DNA of 64,000 nt. Source: Bacteroidota bacterium (GTDB lineage: Bacteria; Bacteroidota; Ignavibacteria; Kapaibacteriales; UBA2268). The notes under the pieces were generated by a model, which did not search any database, was not told the origin of the DNA, and saw only the letters and a list, made by a program, of their open reading frames with translations. The translations under genes were made by a program, and so were the position numbers. The stretch's first letter is position 1; each line of letters opens with the position of its first letter. The stretch covers positions 124,001 to 188,000 of the forward strand of contig SCSM01000013.1 of NCBI GenBank assembly GCA_004322215.1, written 5' to 3'. Shown here piece by piece: positions 4,951 through 27,025 of the stretch.

Positions 4951-7077
4951 TTACGGTTCTAATTTCTCTTCGAGACAGAACCCGTCACTGAATGAAGCCC
5001 ATAGACCTACAGCTTGGCTGTTGACGATTGACCTGTCAACCGCATCAACTCTGATTACATAACCGCATGGTTTCATTTTTGCGGTATTAAGTGTCCAAGG
5101 ATTTCCGGGAGCGATTGCTGTGTTGAACAATCCCGAACTCGGCACAGGTACACCTATTCCAGGAGGATTTATAGACGGCTCGATATAAATTGAATACCTG
5201 CCGAGATAATTGTTTTCGGAACGTGCGACAAATGTCCCGGAAATAATATCTTTTATTTTGAATTTGCCGCAGCTTCCGGCGCCGGATGTAATATCAATAA
5301 ATGCGTGAGGTCCTGTGTTCTCGAGCTGGATGACATGATTGTCAACCCCTGCGAGATTGCCGATTGCGTCGTAAGTCAGAAGCCGTACATGCCATTTCGC
5401 ATTGCCGCTTGTATCCCATTGTGCGAGCAAGCTGATAATGTTCTGATTGAATGGCAAATATGAGAATCGCTTGGTCACGGGATTTGCCTTGTGTGTCGAA
5501 GTAAATCCGAACTGGTCTGTTACTAACAAATCTGTCAGAACAGGTGTCCAAACAAGACCATCTGGGCTTACCTCGACTATATAGCTGTATCCCGGAATAG
5601 GTGCTCCTTGAATTGTTACTCTTCTTGCAAAAGGACACGGTCTTCCGGGTGTAGCGGCATTCCCATCCGGGTCATCCGGGGGAAGGTTGTTTGTTGCAAA
5701 CTTGGCATCCGGTGTTGTAAGCCCGGTTATATTATCTATGAATGAAACAGGAATACCCCCCATGATTGCAATTTTGCCTGCGGCTACTCCTGCTATCGGA
5801 TTTATGTTGATGAGTGTTTCTTCCCTGTTACCCCATGTCGGAACATAATTAGGATTGAATCCCGGAGGCGCAATGTTCCACGATAGTATAGCCCTGATTC
5901 TTACAACAACCGGTCCTTTTTTACAATGTCTCCTGAATTTTTCAAGGTCAACCGGGAGCCGTACGGCATAATAAATTCCTTCGGATGTAATTTGCACAAT
6001 GTCGTAAGTGGTTACATCTGCTGTGCCGAGGAATGTTTCGAAGCTGCCGTTGCCGTCGAAATCAGCCCAGAATGAAACGTATTCCTTGCTTCCTTTTGTG
6101 CAGGGACCACCGGAATAACCGGATGATTTTTTCACCTGGATAACACCCACGAGTGAATCGGGATGATTCGGGTCAAGTCCAATGCACTTTAGTTCTTCAT
6201 AACTAATATCTCCATCGGTTTTTGGAAACAAAAGGTCGCCGATGTTTGGATTAATCTGGATATCGGGTATTAGTTTAGTAAATGCCTCGGCACTGACTGA
6301 GGTTTTACCTGAAATGAAGGACAACATTTCTTTCAACGCAAATCGATGAACAGGCACTCCCTTATCTTTGTACATTACAGCAAGCTGAGAAGCATTATAT
6401 TCCTTCTTTAAAGTCTCGAGGGGTTGCTCGAGGTCCAGGACTTCTTCCAATATAGGCGGAATCTTAACTTTTGCTGCTTCGAAAATAGGAGGCAGAGGTA
6501 TAAATTTGAACGGTTCGACCTGGATCGTAGAATTTCTAACATTACCCCAAACCGGAATCCAGTTCGGCTGATTGGGTGGCGGAGGATTATTCCAGGAAAG
6601 AATAGCTCTCGCCTTAATCAAGGGGTCAAGGATGCAGAATTTTCTTTTTGGATTGATATGGATTGAAGCTGCATATTCCAAACGCTTGCCGCCTTCGGTT
6701 CCTTCAGGTATGTTATACACCTGGAAGCTTGTCATTCCCTGGTCGAACCAGGTAGCACCATTATCATAAGATATGTAGAATCGTACATACTCCGAGGTTC
6801 CCGAACCGCAAATATCGGTACCGTAACCTGTCGGTTGAAGGATATAGACAACTGCCTCGAGCTTTTGCTGCTGAGGATGATAACCCAAACATGCCAAATC
6901 TTCATAATGAGTATTATAAGTAATGGAAATGATAGGTTTGTAAGGACTTTCGGCAAGATTACCGAAATAGTTGGGGTTTCCAATAAGAAGAGATTTGAAG
7001 GAATTCCTTTCTGTTGGAAAAGCGCTTTGTGCTGCGGCTTTGGTCTTTTGCACAGCTTTTTTTAATTCGTCATCCAT
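4951..7077 (-). CDS. Tandem-domain protein of unknown function (708 aa)
   Basis: Not assigned to a named family. Residues about 55-190 and 305-435 are two copies of one module. Each starts near an L-G-(Y/L)-x-P or GLDPNHP segment, passes through a glycine-rich part with conserved cysteine (GYGTDICGSG; GYSGGPCTKGSKEY), and ends RAILSWN-PP, then P-(V/T)-WGN. Both modules look beta-rich. The C-terminal third (about 480-700) is a different, fibronectin-like beta region (SYIVEVSPDGLVWTPV) with several cysteines. There is no signal peptide and no T9SS tail, which is odd for such a beta-sandwich protein and could fit a phage virion, injection-system or cytoplasmic role. GGGAGG lies 6 bases before the ATG. 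It converges on the terminase-like gene. Confidence 0.7.
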   Translation of the reverse strand: MDDELKKAVQKTKAAAQSAFPTERNSFKSLLIGNPNYFGNLAESPYKPIISITYNTHYEDLACLGYHPQQQKLEAVVYILQPTGYGTDICGSGTSEYVRFYISYDNGATWFDQGMTSFQVYNIPEGTEGGKRLEYAASIHINPKRKFCILDPLIKARAILSWNNPPPPNQPNWIPVWGNVRNSTIQVEPFKFIPLPPIFEAAKVKIPPILEEVLDLEQPLETLKKEYNASQLAVMYKDKGVPVHRFALKEMLSFISGKTSVSAEAFTKLIPDIQINPNIGDLLFPKTDGDISYEELKCIGLDPNHPDSLVGVIQVKKSSGYSGGPCTKGSKEYVSFWADFDGNGSFETFLGTADVTTYDIVQITSEGIYYAVRLPVDLEKFRRHCKKGPVVVRIRAILSWNIAPPGFNPNYVPTWGNREETLININPIAGVAAGKIAIMGGIPVSFIDNITGLTTPDAKFATNNLPPDDPDGNAATPGRPCPFARRVTIQGAPIPGYSYIVEVSPDGLVWTPVLTDLLVTDQFGFTSTHKANPVTKRFSYLPFNQNIISLLAQWDTSGNAKWHVRLLTYDAIGNLAGVDNHVIQLENTGPHAFIDITSGAGSCGKFKIKDIISGTFVARSENNYLGRYSIYIEPSINPPGIGVPVPSSGLFNTAIAPGNPWTLNTAKMKPCGYVIRVDAVDRSIVNSQAVGLWASFSDGFCLEEKLEP

Positions 7078-7083
7078 TTTGAC

Positions 7084-7157
7084 CTCCCTTTTTTGGAACT
7101 GGAAAAAAACGAAAAAAAAAGAATCTCAGCCATACAGTTCCAAATGGCTGAGATTCT
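7084..7157 (-). promoter_or_regulatory. Leader hairpin with loop complementary to the RBS-proximal region
   Basis: On the minus strand, upstream of the 708-residue protein gene, arms at 7157-7144 and 7133-7120 form a 14-bp stem (AGAATCTCAGCCAT and its complement). It is followed by an unbroken run of T (A-run 7112-7120), the shape of a Rho-independent terminator. The loop region (7135-7144, plus strand CAGTTCCAAA) is exactly complementary to 7092-7101 (TTTGGAACTG), which lies directly before the GGGAGG ribosome-binding site. A loop-to-leader pseudoknot or switch could couple termination and translation. The pairing is seen; the regulation is inferred. Confidence 0.6.
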
Positions 7158-7488
7158 GACAATTAATTATTGGTATTGCTTTCCTGATTGATTACAGCAG
7201 ATTAATTTGATTAATATATTTATCTTAATTGTCATTGATTATTTATTATTTATAACCCAAAAAATTTTAGACAAAGCTAAAACTTGCTAAAATCTTTGGG
7301 TATAGGTATGAATCTGATTTTCTTGTAGGTGATTGCCTGATAAGTAAATTTATGAATGAATATTTACTTAATATTATCCATGCAATCTCGTCTTATAAAA
7401 ACTTAATACAACCTAAATATGTATTTATTTATGATTAATTTTGTATCACTTAGGTTGCTTATTTTTGTGAATATATTAGGTGTTATAA
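7158..7488. other. Intergenic region with two inverted repeats upstream of the E1 gene
   Basis: No gene is seen. Positions 7255-7301 form a two-part stem: ACCCAAA pairs with TTTGGGT, and ATTTTAG (7264-7270) pairs with CTAAAAT (7287-7293). CAACCTAA (7409-7416) and TTAGGTTG (7450-7457) form a second inverted repeat just before the E1 start, and could be an operator or leader stem. AT content is high, and the promoter of the E1 gene is probably here. An AGGTG element lies about 8 bases before the E1 start. Confidence 0.45.
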
Positions 7489-9856: not shown

Positions 9857-9930
9857 GCGCCCGTAGCTCAACTGGACAGAGTGTTGGATTCCGGTTCCAA
9901 AGGCTGGGGGTTCGAATCCCTTCGGGCGTG
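9857..9930 (+). tRNA. tRNA-Arg (CCG)
   Basis: A complete cloverleaf can be drawn. The acceptor GCGCCCG pairs with CGGGCGT (one G-U at the end) and the D arm is GCTC/GAGT. The anticodon stem TTGGA/TCCAA encloses TTCCGGT, giving anticodon CCG. The T arm is GGGGG/CCCTT around TTCGAAT. The discriminator is G, and CCA is not encoded. It reads CGG arginine codons and lies 43 bases upstream of the TPR protein gene. Confidence 0.95.
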
Positions 9931-10729: not shown

Positions 10730-10817
10730 CAAGCTGTGTTTATATTAATTATGATTATTAAGAAGATAATGAAAATAAATTTTTTGTACATAATAGTAAT
10801 ATTTTATGGGAGGTAAC

Positions 10818-13800
10818 ATGCATCGTTTGTTTCGTTTAAGCTTACTGGTAGTTTTGCTGGGCATCGTAGGATACTCGGTAGGATTAGCAGATAAACCCCG
10901 AGTTGATCTATCAGGGAGAATAGTCCCTGGTGAGGTCAGGATATTGGTGAAAGATACCACATATACCGTAAATTATGAGTACGATATATTCGGTACACTG
11001 ATAATCGAACCGGGTACAATAATTGAGTTTAATCCTAATAGCCGGATAGTTGTCCAGAAGGAAGGAAGACTCATAGCAGACGGTTTTGCAAGAGCAACAT
11101 ACAATCCGAATCCATTTTCACACAATGGAACTACGATTTTGCCTTACGAAAACGTCGGCACAACCCGAAACCCATACAGTTACATAGGGTATTCGGACCT
11201 CAGATATTTTCTTTACGGATGCTATAATCACAATTTGAACGGAGTTGTACCGACAGATGTCGATGCAACGATTGACGTTTCAACACCGCGTGATTTAACA
11301 GTCAATGTTAACAAATACCGTCACGTATTCGATGTGGTACTTGACACAGCACAACGCAGGATTGTTGACCTTATCGGAGACGGAATCAATTATCCCGAAC
11401 CGGCACCGCCGCAATTCAGAATTCCATTTGAAGATGCAATCATGTTTATTGCTTCAAAACTTGGCTCGGCACCAGCCGATGATTATAATTTACAGAGATA
11501 CCCATGGAGAAGAATAGGTGATTTACCGGTAAACATTGTATCCGAAGTGATTCAGTTTAAGGGTTCACCATTCCAGAACTTCTCCAAAGAATGGGGACAT
11601 ATTGTAATATTACCAGGTGCCAGGACAGCGTTTTTCAGAAATTGCGAATTCAACGGTTTGAGGAAAGATACAACTGTTGACAGACTGCCATATTATGTAG
11701 CATCGCAATTTACTCCTCCGTTAACTCAGCCACAGGTTGATGCACTAAACAGAATAGTCTTAGACAGAAGCAATGGTGCAGGTGGAGCAGTAACGACATT
11801 CTCATCGAGAACATGGCTTATAAACTGTAGATTCACATGCAACATGGCACGCCACAGAGGCGGTGCTTTGCAGATTTTACAATCACCCGAAGGATTTCCG
11901 AGACCGGCAGTGAACCCCGAATATTATCGCCTCGATAAAAACCCGAATTTAACGGACAAGGGCGGTGAATTTTCAGAGATAAATACAAATAATGTAATGC
12001 CCGGCTGGAGTAAAATTCTTGCCATAGATTACATAGACGAAGACCCGGTTAACTACCCGGAACCGATGACAAGTTACGACCGTCAGTATTATGACGATGC
12101 ACGTATTGCATTGTTCCTCGGCAGAATGAGAAATTTAAAATTTGACGATAACTTCGTACAGCTTTCAAATATAAGTGACCAAATGGTTGGTTCACAGAGG
12201 ATTGTCCGCGATGACACAACTATCGTAGCAGACGGAAACCAATATTACGGTAACCTGGCTTTTGGCGGTGCAGTTTATATCAGCGGCGAATCGAGTACAT
12301 TTATCGTAAGTCCGCTCGAAGGAACAGCAACCGGATACAGGACACATCCGTTCGAGGTTGGATTTGGTGTTAACAATTCGATTAACATTCACGGTCCAGG
12401 TCCCGGGTATGCACCGACATTGCAGACATTCCCGCTACATGATACATTGTTATTCTTCCATAACTGGGCAAACAATTACCAGGGAGGCGTAACATCATTA
12501 GGAGCAAGAGGTGGTGCTTTATACGTAGGCAACCATACCTCGATGATAGTAGCAGGTGAATTCATAAACAATTACGCATATACAAAATATTTACAGACAG
12601 ATTCCAACGGCTCGAACCCGGGATATTATGCCCGTGGCGGCGCAATCTTCCAGTCCGATTCAAGAAACAGATTGCAGGTGAGAGGCGGTCCGAACAGAGC
12701 TAACGGAACAAATGCTGACAATCCGACTATATTTTATAATAACTGGGCAGGGACAGGCGGTGCTATCTATGTTGATAGAGCAACTGATATTTCTGACCCG
12801 CTTGAATTCAACAGTGTATTATGGGAAGAACCACAATTTTATTTACATTCACCGATTATTGGTGGTTCCGACCATTATATTTATACAAGAGATTATGGAT
12901 TCAATATAACATTCCGCCAAAACAGGGCTAGGTCCTACGGTGGTGCCATATTTACAAACAGGAACATGTCAATTAACGGCGCCGGCGGTGTTACAAATAA
13001 TACATTAATAGGTTACGGCGGCAGATACCCGGTTGCATTCGACAGCAATCATGCAGGATATGCCGGTGGTGCAATTCATATAAGGATACCCGAAAGAGTA
13101 AATTCACCTGTAACCGAAAGAACAATCCAGATGATTCGTGCAAACTTTACATTTAATAAGGTTGGCGAAAACATAGCCGAAGCATTAAAACCACAGATTC
13201 GTGGTGGTGGTGCATTATATGTAATGAATGCAGACTTAAATTTAGTTAAAGGTTCCGAATTCAGAGGCAACGTAGCTTATAACGGAAACGGCGGTGCCAT
13301 CCATATAGTCAGACCTAACCTTTATAATAAGAGGTTCTTCCTGACAGATTTGGATAATGAAGAGAGAACATCAGTGCCATTTATGCCTGAGTACTATTGG
13401 CCCAATACATCTTATGTATCTGAAAACGGCGTATTGGCTTATATGTCAAGTGCATATCCGCCAGATGCAAGAATGTTGACAAGATTCCATGACAACCAGT
13501 TATTGGTTGATGACCAGATTCTTGCCACACAAAGCGGAAGTGGTACGACACAACTCGGTTTAGGCACACCGTCAACAACAGCTAATTTGTTTGGTGTTGC
13601 ATTCCTGACTGAAGACGAAGGTTATACAGTCGGTGCAGGCGGAACGATAATCAGACTGACAGAAGGCGGCGACCAATGGGAATATATACCATCCGGAACA
13701 GCAAATCAGTTAAACGATATTGATTTCTTAACAAACAATGTCGGTGTTATCGTAGGTGATAACGGTACAGCACTTAGAACAATTAATGGCGGCTTGAACT

Positions 13801-16800
13801 GGTCACCTGTTGCAGTTAATTTACTGCCAGGTTGGTCATTAGCTGGAATTAACTTCTATTCGGTTAAGTTCTCCGGCTCGAGCTCTAACATAGGTTACCT
13901 AGTCGGTGACCATGGATTTATAGCCAAAATAACTGTTGATTTGAGTACTGTAACAATTGACCAGGTAGAATCAGGTACGATTCATAATCTATATGAAGTT
14001 TACTTCAACAGGATACATGAAGGTTATGCAGTCGGCGAAAGAGGACTGATTCTGAAACTTAATGAAGACGATAAATGGGATGGACAGATATCCAATATAT
14101 ATACCGATTTATTCTCGGTTTACTTTACAAATGATTATACCGGCTATGCAGTAGGAGAAAACGGCGTTCTATTGAAAACAACGAATGCCGGCTATAGCTG
14201 GGACAGAATTGAAACAGGAACAACAATTCAGTTGAACAGGGTTTGGTTTACCGGCTTGCATGACGGTTACATTACCGGCAATGACGGCTTGCTTCTGAAG
14301 TCAACAAACGACGGAGCAACATGGTTTGCACTCGACCCGAAAACAACTGAAAATCTGAATGACATATTCTTCAAAACTCCAACGGTCGGTTACACTGTCG
14401 GTGATATGGGCTTCATAGCACGTACATCGAATGCGGGTGCCACCTGGGAGAAGAAGGTATCGAAGGACTTGCAGTATATTGACGTGAGAAGATGGGCACA
14501 GGAATCCGGCTTACCCGAAAACGGAGTTGGACTTGGCGGTGCCATTTACATTCTCGACAGTGCAACGGCAAGCAGGTTCGGAAGATCTGACTCGACATGG
14601 TTCAACAGAGTCAGGATTCTAAACAACTTTGCTTATTCCGGTTCTGCAATTTATTCCGATAACTTTGACATGAAGTTAGTATTCAACAGGTCTTTGATTA
14701 CAAGCAATATGGTTGATGAGAGGAATGACATAGGTATCTTCCAGAATGCAATCACTGGTCCTGTAACAAGAGATTTGGCAACAAATACAACAATTATAGG
14801 TAACTGGGCATCACACGATTTGGCAAGCACTTGCATTTACGGTGAAATTCAGGGACCATCGCCTGCTTTCACATATTCAGAAGCAGCTAACTCGATTTAC
14901 AATAATAAATCAAGATTTTTAGTAAGATTACCCGATGCACCGAATACAAAAGGTATACTTGCCGGAACGACAGGTCTTGGCTTTGGTGGTACCGATACAC
15001 TTTCGGGCAACTACTGGGGCAAAACCGAGGCAAACGTAACATTAATCGTTTATGATTCATGTACGAATTGTCCGGGCAAGAAATACAGAGGCGGACATCA
15101 GGAGACATTCTATCTCGATACGACAGACCTTGTCGGTGGATATAATTACCATAAAACAAAGACATTGGATTACAGGTTCTGGGAAACAAAGAGCGAAAAC
15201 AATACCTTGAGAAATACTTATTTATTCAAAGGTGTACACAGCTACTTGTTTGAAGGACCGTTTGAGTCGGTTTTAAAATGGGATTATCAGCCGATACCAT
15301 TGATTAATGATACAATTAATGAGAATACACCAGCAGATTCGAGTATTCCTGACATCCTGCTGGCAAGCGGAAGAATTTATGATGCTTTCGATAAAGGTTT
15401 GGACGTAAAGACAGCAGATTATTCACACAGGAGAATGAGCCCGATTGAAGATTTTGCAGTCGGTATTCCACCTGAATTAATCAGATATACAGACAATACA
15501 TCACCGTACTTCGGTAAATATGTAAGGTGTATGGTTAGAGACCCGTACATTGCGGACAGTTTGGCAGGAGTTAATGACCCGGCATACCCGATAATTAATA
15601 CATTGCAGACTGAATTCCATCCATTCGTAGGACCGGCTCACGATACATTGTTCTATCATCCGATAGGATACCCGCTGTTCCTCGAAACACAGGCGAATTA
15701 CACAGGTGATATTAACAGAACGAACCATGACCTGAGATTCCTTAACGAATCGGTCTTCTTCGTAATAAATGAAACAACAAATGATTATATAAGAGTTAAC
15801 CTGAGACAGGTTTCGGAAGATGCCTCTCACAGGGAGTTCTTCAGAGGAAGAGTTGAATTAATACCCGACTCATCGAACAGGATTCCGAATACGACAATCC
15901 GCCGTTCACATGAAGGATTGTTAAACTTCGGTTCAAACATCGGCGACCCACATATGCTGAGGGCAGTCGAACATAATCCTTACAATGAGGATAGGGGAAC
16001 ATTGGAAGGCAGAAAATATTTCAACAGGTTTGACCAGCTTGGTGCAGAACCGTTGTTATACAAGAATAGGCCTTCGATGCCTCAATTGAACAACAAATTC
16101 AACGTTAACTATGAAACTTATTTCGCAGGCGAACGTTACAGAGCATTACCGGTCAATGTCGGCGATTCGGTCAGTGTCGTATCCAGAACGATACTCTGGA
16201 GAGACGGTGTTGACACAGCATTGCAAAAGGGCTTTGGCTTCAGGGTAACAAACTCAACAATGCCTGCTGAATTTACAGGTGACATATATCATCTTAAGAC
16301 AGACACAATCGTAAAATATGTGCCTTCGCAGTTCCCATGGAGAAATGCAAACGGTGTATATGATACATTAAAGATAACAAACTTCCTGAACAAGGTATTC
16401 GTTACAGAGGACAGGGAATATCCGAAGCCGGTAGGAACATACAGCCAACCGAATCCGCAATTGGGAATCGGAGCCGATGCAGTAGGACGCGACCACATCA
16501 TTAACATAACAGCTAAGGATTGGAACAATTTCTACGACCCGAGAGCATTCGCAATTCCTGACACCTTTGCTTACCTGAGATATGAGGCATATCCTTCTTA
16601 TCCGAATTCAGGAATACAGCGCTGGTTGAAGTACGAATACGTACCGGCAGGAGCAACTTACGTAACAAATCCGCAGGATGAAGCAAACGGTTACCTGATT
16701 CTTAGAGGCAGACCGACAAATCCTTATGTGGTTCCCGGAGGCGAAGAAGTTTATGTAACCGTACATAACTATCCACCTCATTATAGGACAACGGATTCGT

Positions 16801-19286
16801 TAAAAGGTTTCCCGAGCCACTTTAACCAGGATTATATTGATAAATTCATCTACCTGTTCACACCATACCTGAATGCACCGGTTTATGATGCGGCTGAAAA
16901 TGACCCGCACACAGAAAATGCAAGGTATTTGCAGCAGGATACAATTGATTACGGCAGAAATTTTGTCGGTGAATACAGGTTCAAGGTATTTGTGGTTGAC
17001 AGCCAGCCGAGATTCCTTATGCCTGATGACCCGAACCAGGGATACCCGATTCAGAATCCGCAGTATCCTGAAGAATTCAGGGTAACACTCGATTCCAAGA
17101 ATAATCAGAATACCGAGTTGATTGGAACTTATACAGCTTCGGTATATCCCTGCCGTACAAAGGTTGACGGTAGATTGAAAGCAAATTTGACAAATAAACT
17201 AAGATTTGCAGTTAACTTAAATACAAATGACGAGGAAGAAGACCAGTGGGCAGAAGAAAAGAATTGGGACTTCCGCTTTGGACGTACAGTTTATGGCTTC
17301 CTTAATAAAGCTTATAGGCAGGCAGATGATGAACTGGTTGTTCTTGATACATTGGTAACGAACCCGAATATTTATAATGGTAACACCGTTATCAGACAGG
17401 GAAGACCAATCTGGATGGATGATAAGTTCATATATAAATATGATAGTAATGGAAACAGTGTTATTTCCGATACAGAAAAAGATGAATTCGGCGCTGATTT
17501 CACTACAAAAGGTGAACTTAATATCAGGGTTGATTATGATATGGCAGTTTCATTGCTGACACCGCCTAACAGAACAAATGAAGAAATGGCACTCGATACG
17601 GTATTATCTGTTGTAGTTAACGACGGACACGGCGGAATCAATAAGATTGATTTACCATTGATGGTAAACGTCGAACCGATTATTACAACTGCAACAGTAT
17701 TGCCACCGGCTAAGGAAGATATTGAATATAATCCTCAGCTTATGGATAAGACAAAGATGATTCAGGTTAAAGACCCGAACTTCGGTCAGACACATTACTT
17801 CGAAATTCTTTATCCGAATAGTTATCCTGGCGTTGACAGGATACCACGTGACCCGTGCTTCCCGGATGCAGACCCGACAAACTATTGGGATATAAGCGAC
17901 AAGAAGACAGCACCTGAATGGCTAAAGATAAACAAACAGAGCGGCTTGCTTTACGGAATTCCGGGTGTGAAAGACGCACCAAGGAACGAATCGGTAACAA
18001 TTCTTTGCTGGGATGAAGATGATTTGGTAACAATGCAGACATTCTCAATCTTCGTAGATTCGACAAGGCATCAGCCGAGAATTGAAGCATCGCCGATTGT
18101 GAAATGCGTTGAAAACGGAGGGGATTATCTCGATTCCATTAAAGTCAGAGACCTTGACCTTCTCAGGGGAAGACAAGCGGGTGACCCGACAGAAACACTG
18201 ACATTCGAGATTGAAAGCCCGATACCATCTAACACAGTGCTGGATCCGACAACAATATCAGGAATCCAGGAGAATCCTGACCAGGTTGTCTATATTAGGT
18301 CAACAGGATTCAATGCACCGAGAGACCCGGATGGAAAGGTAACAATTAGAATTAAGGTTACTGACGAAGCAGGTTTGACAGACGAATTAATTTACAGATT
18401 GAGATTCTCTGACAAGACATACTTTGTTTGCCCGGTTAAAGTTGAAAACAATCTCGGAGCATTCCAGTGGCTTGAATTCGGTACAGGCCAGGGTGCAACC
18501 ACAGGAGAAGGATTAGACAGTGACACATTAGGCACTCTCGATGCTAACTACTGCGAGTTTGAATTACCACCGTTGCCGCACGAAGATGTGTTCGATGCAA
18601 GATGGGATATTCCTACAGTTAATGGTATAATAAGAAACATATTCCCAGTAGGAGTAACTAATCCACCGGGACAGATGAGAATTTACAAATGTATATTCAA
18701 TTCCGGAGGTGTAGCAGGTAATACATCCAACTATTACCCGATAAGAGTATCCTGGGATATGAATCGTGTACCGAGTAAGACTGATGCTGTAAAGAATCCT
18801 ACCGGCTCAAGCTGGTACATTAAGGACCTCGGTTCAGACGGAAACGTATTCAGGTATGATATGAATACCGGTATTGGTACTTCAGCTCCAGATATTATAA
18901 TGTCACAAGCAAACGGTATTATTACTTTGACAATAGACAGGAGCAGTATTAAGGAATTCATCATTGTTCACGATTGGACATCAGGAGTTGATGATGGTGA
19001 AACAAACCTTACAACCGGAATTACATCGGTATCGCCGAACCCGATGGCAAGAACAACAGATATCAAGTTCAATATAGCACAGAAATCCAATATCAGGTTG
19101 GAAGTGATAGATGAGCTTGGCAAACTGGTTTCGGTAATTACCGACGGCGATTACGCTCCGGGAAGCTATCATTTCGATTGGGAAGCCCGCGACATAAGCG
19201 GACATGAGTTATCAAGCGGCACATATACATGCAGATTGATAGCAGGTGCAGTAACATCAACCGAGAAGATAGTCATTGTTAAATAA
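10818..19286 (+). CDS. Giant T9SS-secreted beta-helix protein with YCF48-type propeller
   Basis: A 2822-residue surface or secreted protein. A signal peptide (RLFRLSLLVVLLGIVGYSVG) is followed by a parallel beta-helix-like region with about eleven GGA(I/L/V)(Y/F/H) motifs, including GGALYVGN, GGAIFQSD, GGAIYVDR and GGAIHIVR. Residues about 920-1215 hold seven YCF48/BNR-type units (DEGYTVGAGGTI, NVGVIVGDNGTA and similar), predicting a seven-bladed propeller. GGAIY motifs then resume (GGAIYILD). Residues about 1450-2650 are cadherin/Ig-like beta repeats with calcium-type DxD motifs. The C-terminus (from SVSPNPMARTTDIKFNIA) is a T9SS type A sorting domain ending EKIVIVK. The start at 10818 has GGGAGG six bases upstream and is preferred over the in-frame ATG at 10806. 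Confidence 0.85.
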   Translation: MHRLFRLSLLVVLLGIVGYSVGLADKPRVDLSGRIVPGEVRILVKDTTYTVNYEYDIFGTLIIEPGTIIEFNPNSRIVVQKEGRLIADGFARATYNPNPFSHNGTTILPYENVGTTRNPYSYIGYSDLRYFLYGCYNHNLNGVVPTDVDATIDVSTPRDLTVNVNKYRHVFDVVLDTAQRRIVDLIGDGINYPEPAPPQFRIPFEDAIMFIASKLGSAPADDYNLQRYPWRRIGDLPVNIVSEVIQFKGSPFQNFSKEWGHIVILPGARTAFFRNCEFNGLRKDTTVDRLPYYVASQFTPPLTQPQVDALNRIVLDRSNGAGGAVTTFSSRTWLINCRFTCNMARHRGGALQILQSPEGFPRPAVNPEYYRLDKNPNLTDKGGEFSEINTNNVMPGWSKILAIDYIDEDPVNYPEPMTSYDRQYYDDARIALFLGRMRNLKFDDNFVQLSNISDQMVGSQRIVRDDTTIVADGNQYYGNLAFGGAVYISGESSTFIVSPLEGTATGYRTHPFEVGFGVNNSINIHGPGPGYAPTLQTFPLHDTLLFFHNWANNYQGGVTSLGARGGALYVGNHTSMIVAGEFINNYAYTKYLQTDSNGSNPGYYARGGAIFQSDSRNRLQVRGGPNRANGTNADNPTIFYNNWAGTGGAIYVDRATDISDPLEFNSVLWEEPQFYLHSPIIGGSDHYIYTRDYGFNITFRQNRARSYGGAIFTNRNMSINGAGGVTNNTLIGYGGRYPVAFDSNHAGYAGGAIHIRIPERVNSPVTERTIQMIRANFTFNKVGENIAEALKPQIRGGGALYVMNADLNLVKGSEFRGNVAYNGNGGAIHIVRPNLYNKRFFLTDLDNEERTSVPFMPEYYWPNTSYVSENGVLAYMSSAYPPDARMLTRFHDNQLLVDDQILATQSGSGTTQLGLGTPSTTANLFGVAFLTEDEGYTVGAGGTIIRLTEGGDQWEYIPSGTANQLNDIDFLTNNVGVIVGDNGTALRTINGGLNWSPVAVNLLPGWSLAGINFYSVKFSGSSSNIGYLVGDHGFIAKITVDLSTVTIDQVESGTIHNLYEVYFNRIHEGYAVGERGLILKLNEDDKWDGQISNIYTDLFSVYFTNDYTGYAVGENGVLLKTTNAGYSWDRIETGTTIQLNRVWFTGLHDGYITGNDGLLLKSTNDGATWFALDPKTTENLNDIFFKTPTVGYTVGDMGFIARTSNAGATWEKKVSKDLQYIDVRRWAQESGLPENGVGLGGAIYILDSATASRFGRSDSTWFNRVRILNNFAYSGSAIYSDNFDMKLVFNRSLITSNMVDERNDIGIFQNAITGPVTRDLATNTTIIGNWASHDLASTCIYGEIQGPSPAFTYSEAANSIYNNKSRFLVRLPDAPNTKGILAGTTGLGFGGTDTLSGNYWGKTEANVTLIVYDSCTNCPGKKYRGGHQETFYLDTTDLVGGYNYHKTKTLDYRFWETKSENNTLRNTYLFKGVHSYLFEGPFESVLKWDYQPIPLINDTINENTPADSSIPDILLASGRIYDAFDKGLDVKTADYSHRRMSPIEDFAVGIPPELIRYTDNTSPYFGKYVRCMVRDPYIADSLAGVNDPAYPIINTLQTEFHPFVGPAHDTLFYHPIGYPLFLETQANYTGDINRTNHDLRFLNESVFFVINETTNDYIRVNLRQVSEDASHREFFRGRVELIPDSSNRIPNTTIRRSHEGLLNFGSNIGDPHMLRAVEHNPYNEDRGTLEGRKYFNRFDQLGAEPLLYKNRPSMPQLNNKFNVNYETYFAGERYRALPVNVGDSVSVVSRTILWRDGVDTALQKGFGFRVTNSTMPAEFTGDIYHLKTDTIVKYVPSQFPWRNANGVYDTLKITNFLNKVFVTEDREYPKPVGTYSQPNPQLGIGADAVGRDHIINITAKDWNNFYDPRAFAIPDTFAYLRYEAYPSYPNSGIQRWLKYEYVPAGATYVTNPQDEANGYLILRGRPTNPYVVPGGEEVYVTVHNYPPHYRTTDSLKGFPSHFNQDYIDKFIYLFTPYLNAPVYDAAENDPHTENARYLQQDTIDYGRNFVGEYRFKVFVVDSQPRFLMPDDPNQGYPIQNPQYPEEFRVTLDSKNNQNTELIGTYTASVYPCRTKVDGRLKANLTNKLRFAVNLNTNDEEEDQWAEEKNWDFRFGRTVYGFLNKAYRQADDELVVLDTLVTNPNIYNGNTVIRQGRPIWMDDKFIYKYDSNGNSVISDTEKDEFGADFTTKGELNIRVDYDMAVSLLTPPNRTNEEMALDTVLSVVVNDGHGGINKIDLPLMVNVEPIITTATVLPPAKEDIEYNPQLMDKTKMIQVKDPNFGQTHYFEILYPNSYPGVDRIPRDPCFPDADPTNYWDISDKKTAPEWLKINKQSGLLYGIPGVKDAPRNESVTILCWDEDDLVTMQTFSIFVDSTRHQPRIEASPIVKCVENGGDYLDSIKVRDLDLLRGRQAGDPTETLTFEIESPIPSNTVLDPTTISGIQENPDQVVYIRSTGFNAPRDPDGKVTIRIKVTDEAGLTDELIYRLRFSDKTYFVCPVKVENNLGAFQWLEFGTGQGATTGEGLDSDTLGTLDANYCEFELPPLPHEDVFDARWDIPTVNGIIRNIFPVGVTNPPGQMRIYKCIFNSGGVAGNTSNYYPIRVSWDMNRVPSKTDAVKNPTGSSWYIKDLGSDGNVFRYDMNTGIGTSAPDIIMSQANGIITLTIDRSSIKEFIIVHDWTSGVDDGETNLTTGITSVSPNPMARTTDIKFNIAQKSNIRLEVIDELGKLVSVITDGDYAPGSYHFDWEARDISGHELSSGTYTCRLIAGAVTSTEKIVIVK

Positions 19287-26119: not shown

Positions 26120-26148
26120 GATGGGCGACATTTTATATGTTGCCCATT
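26120..26148 (+). terminator. Probable terminator after the T9SS block
   Basis: GATGGGCGACAT pairs with ATGTTGCCCATT (one G-U) around TTTAT. The downstream TTTGCTTTATG is only weakly T-rich. It lies 35 bases after the 1108-residue protein gene and would separate it from the following smaller secreted-protein gene. Confidence 0.6.
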
Positions 26149-26224
26149 TGCTTTATGTAACGAAAGTAACTTTTGTAAAATAAAAAGCGGATTCAGACAT
26201 CTTAATAAATTATGACTTTATAAA

Positions 26225-27025
26225 ATGTTAAGAATAAATAAAATGATAAAAAAAATACTTATTGTATCAATTTTGTTATTAAACTCATTGATGCTTTTTA
26301 GCTATACGCACATAGAAGTCCCCATAGAATTATCGGATGAATTGGGTTCGAATTATAGATTAGTGTTTGGTGTAGATGAGAAAGCAACAGATACATGGGA
26401 TTCATTATTGGGTGAGTTAAATGCTCCGAGATTTCCTCCACCCAAGAATACATTCCATGCAGCATTCGAGATATTCGATTCGATAAGGACAATGGATTTG
26501 TGTTGGTCCTATAAGGATTTCAGACCGATAATAAATACCCGTCAATATTATGTCCTATATAATGTTAAGGTGTACAGGGGCGATGGGAATTTACTGATTT
26601 TCAAATGGAATACATTACCGAAGGAAATAGATTCTGCAAAAATTACAGACAGGGATGAGCTAATTGTTATTGTAGATATAAATTTGACCGGTTCTAAAAG
26701 AAGTGATACAATAACAAACAAGTATATGAATGAATACTTTATCAAGGTATGGTACAGCAATCCACTCGCTGTTGCCGAAGACGGAGTTGACAATAAAGAT
26801 TTTTTTGTTTACCCGGTACCTACCGATGGAGATAAATTATTTATTAATTCGAATTCGAATGGATTTACTTATAAAATCTATTCTGAAACAGGTATTGAAA
26901 TGATTAGCGGAAAATCGGAAGGCGACGAAACAGAACTGATTATTTCAAAACTGGTAAAAGGGATTTATTTTATTGTATTAAATTCCGGTGACAAACAAGT
27001 AGTTAAGAAATTGGTAAGATTGTAG
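26225..27025 (+). CDS. Small T9SS-secreted protein
   Basis: A 266-residue exported protein. The signal peptide is KKILIVSILLLNSLMLFS. The ATG at 26225 and an in-frame ATG at 26243 are both possible starts, and neither has a clear Shine-Dalgarno. The middle is a beta-rich domain with no recognised family; its N-terminal half (ELGSNYRLVFGVDEKATDTWD) resembles segments of other T9SS cargo. The last 75 residues (FVYPVPTDGDKLFINSN to VVKKLVRL) form a T9SS type A sorting domain. It is fifth and last of the consecutive secreted-protein genes and is preceded by a probable terminator, so it may have its own promoter. Confidence 0.75.
   Translation: MLRINKMIKKILIVSILLLNSLMLFSYTHIEVPIELSDELGSNYRLVFGVDEKATDTWDSLLGELNAPRFPPPKNTFHAAFEIFDSIRTMDLCWSYKDFRPIINTRQYYVLYNVKVYRGDGNLLIFKWNTLPKEIDSAKITDRDELIVIVDINLTGSKRSDTITNKYMNEYFIKVWYSNPLAVAEDGVDNKDFFVYPVPTDGDKLFINSNSNGFTYKIYSETGIEMISGKSEGDETELIISKLVKGIYFIVLNSGDKQVVKKLVRL

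Follow-up and report, generated by a model that had tools for sequence, protein, structure and literature searches.

The leader of a gene for a 708-aa protein, carried on the minus strand (4951-7077) of the window (the whole 64,000-nucleotide stretch that was analysed), appears to contain a selected H-type pseudoknot that abuts the Shine-Dalgarno (SD) sequence and would control translation initiation of this gene; this is the reading we favour, with moderate confidence. Both of its helices are kept in the leader of one close homologue (locus L011), the first covarying and the second conserved without covariation, and on the basis of these two sequences the pseudoknot is probably under selection. 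The H-type pseudoknot is a known type of RNA control, and this leader is a new example of it, not a new type.

Structure of the leader

A sequence-only reading of the window had described, ahead of the 708-aa gene, a 14-bp stem with a T-run and a loop segment complementary to 7092-7101 over ten bases; the minus-strand sequence confirms the stem and T-run, and the complement is an exact match. The stem, S1, pairs 7144-7157 with 7120-7133 on the minus strand and consists of 13 bp, formed by the 5' arm GAAUCUCAGCCAU (7144-7156) and the 3' arm AUGGCUGAGAUUC (7121-7133), plus one A-U pair that uses the first base of the U-run (7120). Its hairpin loop is 10 nt long (7134-7143, minus strand). Downstream, CAGUUCCAAA (7092-7101) is complementary to UUUGGAACUG (7135-7144) at every position. 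The complementarity therefore stands as first described, but simultaneous pairing of all ten bases does not, as 7144 is itself a base of the stem and cannot be spared while S1 is intact. We take the geometry to allow a second helix, S2, of 6-7 bp beside an intact S1, with GGAACUG inside the hairpin loop (7135-7141) paired to CAGUUCC (7095-7101, the complement extending to 7092), both on the minus strand. Loop 3 of the pseudoknot (7102-7120, minus strand; U9-CG-U7-C) is, taken with S1, also a terminator-like U-run (7103-7120). The SD sequence GGGAGG, read from the sequence, lies at 7083-7088 on the minus strand. The complement had been placed immediately before it; in fact 3 nt intervene, and the gap from the seven-pair S2 is 6 nt.

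Conservation in a close homologue

The homologous gene lies on a contig of family genome G015 that corresponds to L011 (DAHXMP010000347.1), and is 81% identical to the window's gene in amino acids and 73% in nucleotides. In its leader (L011:2923-3000), AAAUCUGCGGCAU and AUGCUACAGGUUU form the stem and AAUUAUGAACUGC the loop. There follow GCAGUUC at 2973-2979, the counterpart of the 3' strand of S2, and GGGAGG at 2988-2993, with 8 bases between them; S2 is here GAACUGC/GCAGUUC. Thus the loop-to-leader complementarity on which the sequence-only reading had staked its case is found in the one close homologue, together with compensatory changes in the stem. Relative to the window, the S1 arms of L011 carry four substitutions in the 5' arm and six in the 3' arm, and 12 of 13 pairs are nevertheless kept, as against 13 of 13 in the window: seven are unchanged, three have changed on both sides, two have become wobbles and one is broken. 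With the same numbers of substitutions placed at random in these 13-base arms, which were paired by eye, at least 12 pairs are retained with P=0.00036, and a shuffled L011 3' arm retains at least 12 in 0.006% of trials. A column-shuffle covariation control, weak with two rows, was not significant (109 of 500, or 45 of 500 with cells paired); its alignment leaves out the two loop-closing pairs and has the outermost pair gapped in L011. This alignment (A3) was taken in preference to A1, A2 and A4, in which MAFFT had misplaced the L011 gap. The six-pair core of S2 is invariant between the two leaders, while loop 3 diverges; as these six pairs do not vary, the support for S2 is conservation and not covariation. 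The genes upstream differ between the two loci, so that the leader travels with the 708-aa gene.

The homologue also bears on whether the hairpin is simply an intrinsic terminator acting as an attenuator, the loop complement being incidental or serving to stabilise the ended transcript. In the window the resemblance is good: a perfect, GC-containing stem of 14 bp (-20.8 kcal/mol for the S1 hairpin) passes directly into U9. L011, however, keeps both S1 and S2 and has UUUUGAAAAAG (2959-2972) in place of the U-run, so that the terminator is not conserved and the pseudoknot is, which goes against the terminator function suggested at first. Moreover, the 3' strand of S2 lies downstream of the point of termination and so could not steer it, and on its own a constitutive terminator some 40 nt ahead of a gene whose SD is strong would make little sense. 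A terminator is thus an unlikely explanation, and as judged from the two leaders the terminator-like look is particular to the window's genome. (A simple terminator scan of the window does not list this hairpin, owing to its loop limit of 8.)

A second explanation, to which we give about as little weight, would have S1 and S2 as the competing helices of a switch, with S1 dominant in the window and a 14-bp extended S2 in the homologue. The folding calculations lean this way: the minimum-energy fold of L011 is the extended S2 (CAUAAUU..GAACUGC), with a pair probability of 0.91 for S2 against 0.085 for S1, and S1 has a probability of 0.99 in the window. The energy model cannot represent a knot, however, and S1 and an S2 of 6-7 bp look geometrically compatible, so that competition is unneeded.

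That two AT-rich leaders with residual sequence identity should resemble each other by chance is very improbable. Dinucleotide shuffling of the 150-nt leader, repeated 1000 times, never gave a hairpin with a loop complement near the start codon as good as that of the window, and the whole motif of L011 was equalled in 7 of 1000 (2 of 300 in a separate run), the motif descriptor and the alignment of the arms having been defined after both structures had been seen; to this is added the retention of S1 pairs noted above. The folded leader of the window (111 nt) is more stable than all 200 of its shuffles (z -3.79). In favour of chance, there are only two sequences, the overall stability of the L011 leader is not clearly above that of its shuffles (z -1.76, 11 of 200 folding as well), and motifs of a laxer kind (S2 of at least 7, S1 of at least 10) have a density of about one per 10.7 kb of strand, with 12 places, this one included, in the 128 kb of both strands. 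Two of those 12 places reach the score of this element, and the second (26128/26219) overlaps its own stem. The latter is an intergenic hairpin on the plus strand (ATGGGCGACAT..ATGTTGCCCAT; 26121-26147 and 26219-26228), and the match between its AU-rich top and the sequence around the start codon of the following gene is probably chance.

Distribution of the gene and of its leader

The 708-aa protein has no family match above cut-off; against Pfam it gives only GEVED, below the cut-off (16 bits against 24.4), and PHROGs and NCBIfam give no match. Its predicted structure is poor (pLDDT 49.6), and solved structures offer no usable match (best E 0.34). Just two of the 54 family genomes have the gene, the window's own and G015. 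Further homologues, at 39-68% identity, are found in scattered Gammaproteobacteria, in one more Bacteroidetes MAG and in one Chloroflexota MAG. Wider protein searches, which include the window's own genome, found it in 2 of 60 relatives, 3 of 395 genomes of the phylum and 2 of 391 of the class; the three further relatives from the phylum and class searches are distant (35-49%), and the leader of one of them (L019) was among those tested for the arrangement. No relatives were found at the cut-offs used in phages, plasmids or viral contigs. The scattered distribution of the family suggests horizontal transfer.

In seven leaders from homologues of lower identity (39-68%) the arrangement is not seen even when the threshold is relaxed, so that the element is a feature of the gene as found in this lineage. 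Two of these leaders, L013 and L014, are almost identical; for L018 and L019 the start is uncertain or a few bases off (GTG and TGA stand at the positions taken), and the set excludes L020, L085 and the truncated L016. When a covariance model of S1 with its flanking sequence, derived from the window and L011, is run across 123 genomes of the order, only the two known loci reach E<=0.02. In the 54 family genomes 30 have some match at E<=1, with only the window locus and that of G015 below 0.03 and the next at 0.038. Across ten loci and the window, the best match besides the two known places (E 0.0031) is the same hairpin on the opposite strand. A search of the 123 order genomes by sequence pattern gave 20 places in 15 genomes, as against 5 for the reversed control. 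Among the 15 loci examined from these 20 places, only the two known ones reach an S1 score of at least 10. The best of the other 13 scores 9 and lacks a start codon beside its GGAGG; 10 of these 13 fall within a frame that is open over all 100 codons checked. In the window's own genome the 121-base leader has one full match, others being short or weak, and the pattern GAACTG..CAGTTC..GGAGG has one match.

The sequence-only reading knew no named riboswitch of this form, and indeed at this locus every Rfam family stays below its gathering score, the one gathering match of the window being a tRNA (9857-9930). Relaxed Rfam scans of both leaders give only matches below cut-off to unrelated families.

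Promoter and apparent operator

Upstream of the leader, TAGCTTTG (7272-7279, minus strand) matches TAnnTTTG, which we take to be the Bacteroidota -7 consensus. The same box is present in L011; its distance to the start codon is 202 nt in the window and 155 nt in L011. Transcription probably starts near this box, to judge by its sequence, giving a leader from about 7270 down to 7078. These distances bear on a further explanation, in which a dimeric transcription factor would recognise the inverted repeat as DNA and the complementarity of the loop would be a coincidence. Inverted repeats near promoters are often such sites. This one, however, is found downstream of the -7 box, by 115 nt in the window and by 69 nt in L011. 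Its loop complement reappears at the corresponding position in L011, and the L011 repeat has different arm letters as well as the two G-U pairs and the mismatch, which favour an RNA over a DNA palindrome. We regard a DNA site as highly improbable.

A 27-bp operator-like sequence, TCAGGCAATCACCTACAAGAAAATCAG (7314-7340, minus strand), is common to the window, L011 and lipoprotein-like genes near a NarL-type response regulator. Matches at E<=0.01 to a larger block of 91 bases, most of them short, turned up in 14 of the 54 family genomes. The 27-bp motif itself, with up to 3 mismatches, occurs at eight places in 5 of the 54 (reversed control, 0): five are before a lipoprotein-like gene of 186-187 aa, with a lipobox-like start and a match to Pfam LPAM_1 below cut-off, and two are before the 708-aa gene. 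The eighth site (L057; G015:C242:3284-3325) is close to a contig end and precedes an unidentified stretch. Taken across the family genomes, the set of sites is small and very specific. The operator-carrying lipoprotein loci belong to the same genus as the window, plus G015. Four of the five (G000, G002, G003 and G015) have a response regulator gene immediately upstream. The G000 regulator combines Response_reg with a GerE domain of the LuxR type, and the other three are 69-71% identical to it. At the fifth locus (G001) no regulator is found within 973 bases upstream, where there is another ORF. Since its operator is shared with genes beside the regulator, the 708-aa gene would belong to a small regulon of this NarL-type response regulator, which, from the position of the operator, would switch transcription through it. 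The pseudoknot would then add a post-transcriptional layer specific to the 708-aa gene; by inspection, the lipoprotein leaders have no obvious pseudoknot.

The SD sequence and translation

Bacteroidia ribosomes are reported (PMC9976891) to ignore SD sequences. In the window, SD-like 4-mers precede 9 of 29 ORF starts, as against 2.3 in shuffles (none of 2000 shuffles being as high), and GGAGG or AGGAG stands at two of the 29, that of the 708-aa gene included; the 29 putative starts were hand-picked from 42 ORFs of at least 150 aa. This enrichment makes it plausible that GGGAGG is used, and on such motif counts the SD is probably read in this organism.

In the pseudoknot as we propose it, an S1 of 12-14 bp would carry a loop whose pairing with the stretch directly preceding the SD, over 6-7 bp, makes up S2, and loop 3 (11-19 nt) would span S1. 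A knot so placed, bordering the 30S site on its upstream side, may set translation initiation of the 708-aa gene. The U-run would be a variable loop 3, and in this genome alone it may also bring about a degree of premature termination. It had been suggested that the pairing might sequester the ribosome-binding site; however, the pairing stops 6 or 3 nt before GGGAGG, depending on whether seven or ten pairs are counted, and the predicted opening of the SD in the window does not change. In the folding calculation, forcing the knot leaves SD opening at 0.005 both ways in the window, where the SD is predicted to be closed with or without it, and raises it modestly, from 0.026 to 0.081, in L011. 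On these values neither masking nor unmasking is shown.

Comparison with known systems

The preQ1 and SAM-II riboswitches also have a compact pseudoknot next to the SD. They differ in that the present leader has plain long helices and is found before one gene only, and the relaxed scans named neither of them. In plasmid repZ the pairing partner of a hairpin loop lies just before the RBS, the leader peptide RepY precedes the hairpin, and translation of the leader peptide opens a stem that masks the SD. Translation of repZ depends on this pseudoknot upstream of its RBS, according to passages of PMC8383071. The leader described here is like that of repZ in that S2 is immediately 5' of the RBS (6 nt from the SD in the window, 8 nt in L011), and a possible short ORF stands before its hairpin; it differs in belonging to a chromosomal Bacteroidota gene. 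The possible leader ORF of the window is weak: it has 22 codons (7167-7235, minus strand) and ends 10 nt 5' of S1, its counterpart in L011 having 10 codons and ending 4 nt 5' of S1. Shuffling yields such a short ORF in 262 of 2000 cases for the window (13%) and 229 of 2000 for L011 (11%), so that it is a lead only. As regards an antisense RNA against the loop, a feature of the repZ type, no promoter box of the TAnnTTTG kind was found near the hairpin, on the plus strand of the window at 6951-7200 or on the reverse strand of L011:2901-3150.

By analogy with repZ, a permissive or activating role for the pseudoknot is favoured slightly over a repressive one. The fuller analogy, a chromosomal switch in which translation of the short leader ORF would govern the pairing of loop and pre-SD segment, turn on the 708-aa gene and so gate the promoter driven by the NarL-type regulator, seems to us unlikely. 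We know of an activating pre-RBS pseudoknot mechanism only from plasmids, and if the knot described here is activating it would be a chromosomal parallel.

T4 gene 32 offers another comparison. Its autoregulatory pseudoknot, 67 nt upstream of the start codon, nucleates the cooperative binding of gp32, and one related phage retains a related structure while another does not, as described in passages of PMC3014915. Both are pseudoknots in the 5' leader of a single gene, but the present knot abuts the SD rather than lying 67 nt upstream of the start codon. Among the papers listed on pseudoknots, leaders and translation initiation in Bacteroidetes, judged by title and for PMC4833913 also by passages, none describes this element.

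A conserved knot at a strong SD, in an apparent two-component target, offers a compact system, open to mutation, in which to study the influence of structure just upstream of an SD on initiation. Little RNA-level control has to our knowledge been described in these uncultured Bacteroidota. Elsewhere in the window, 10806-19286 encodes a protein of 2826 aa whose C-terminus, as we take it, resembles a type IX secretion sorting domain.
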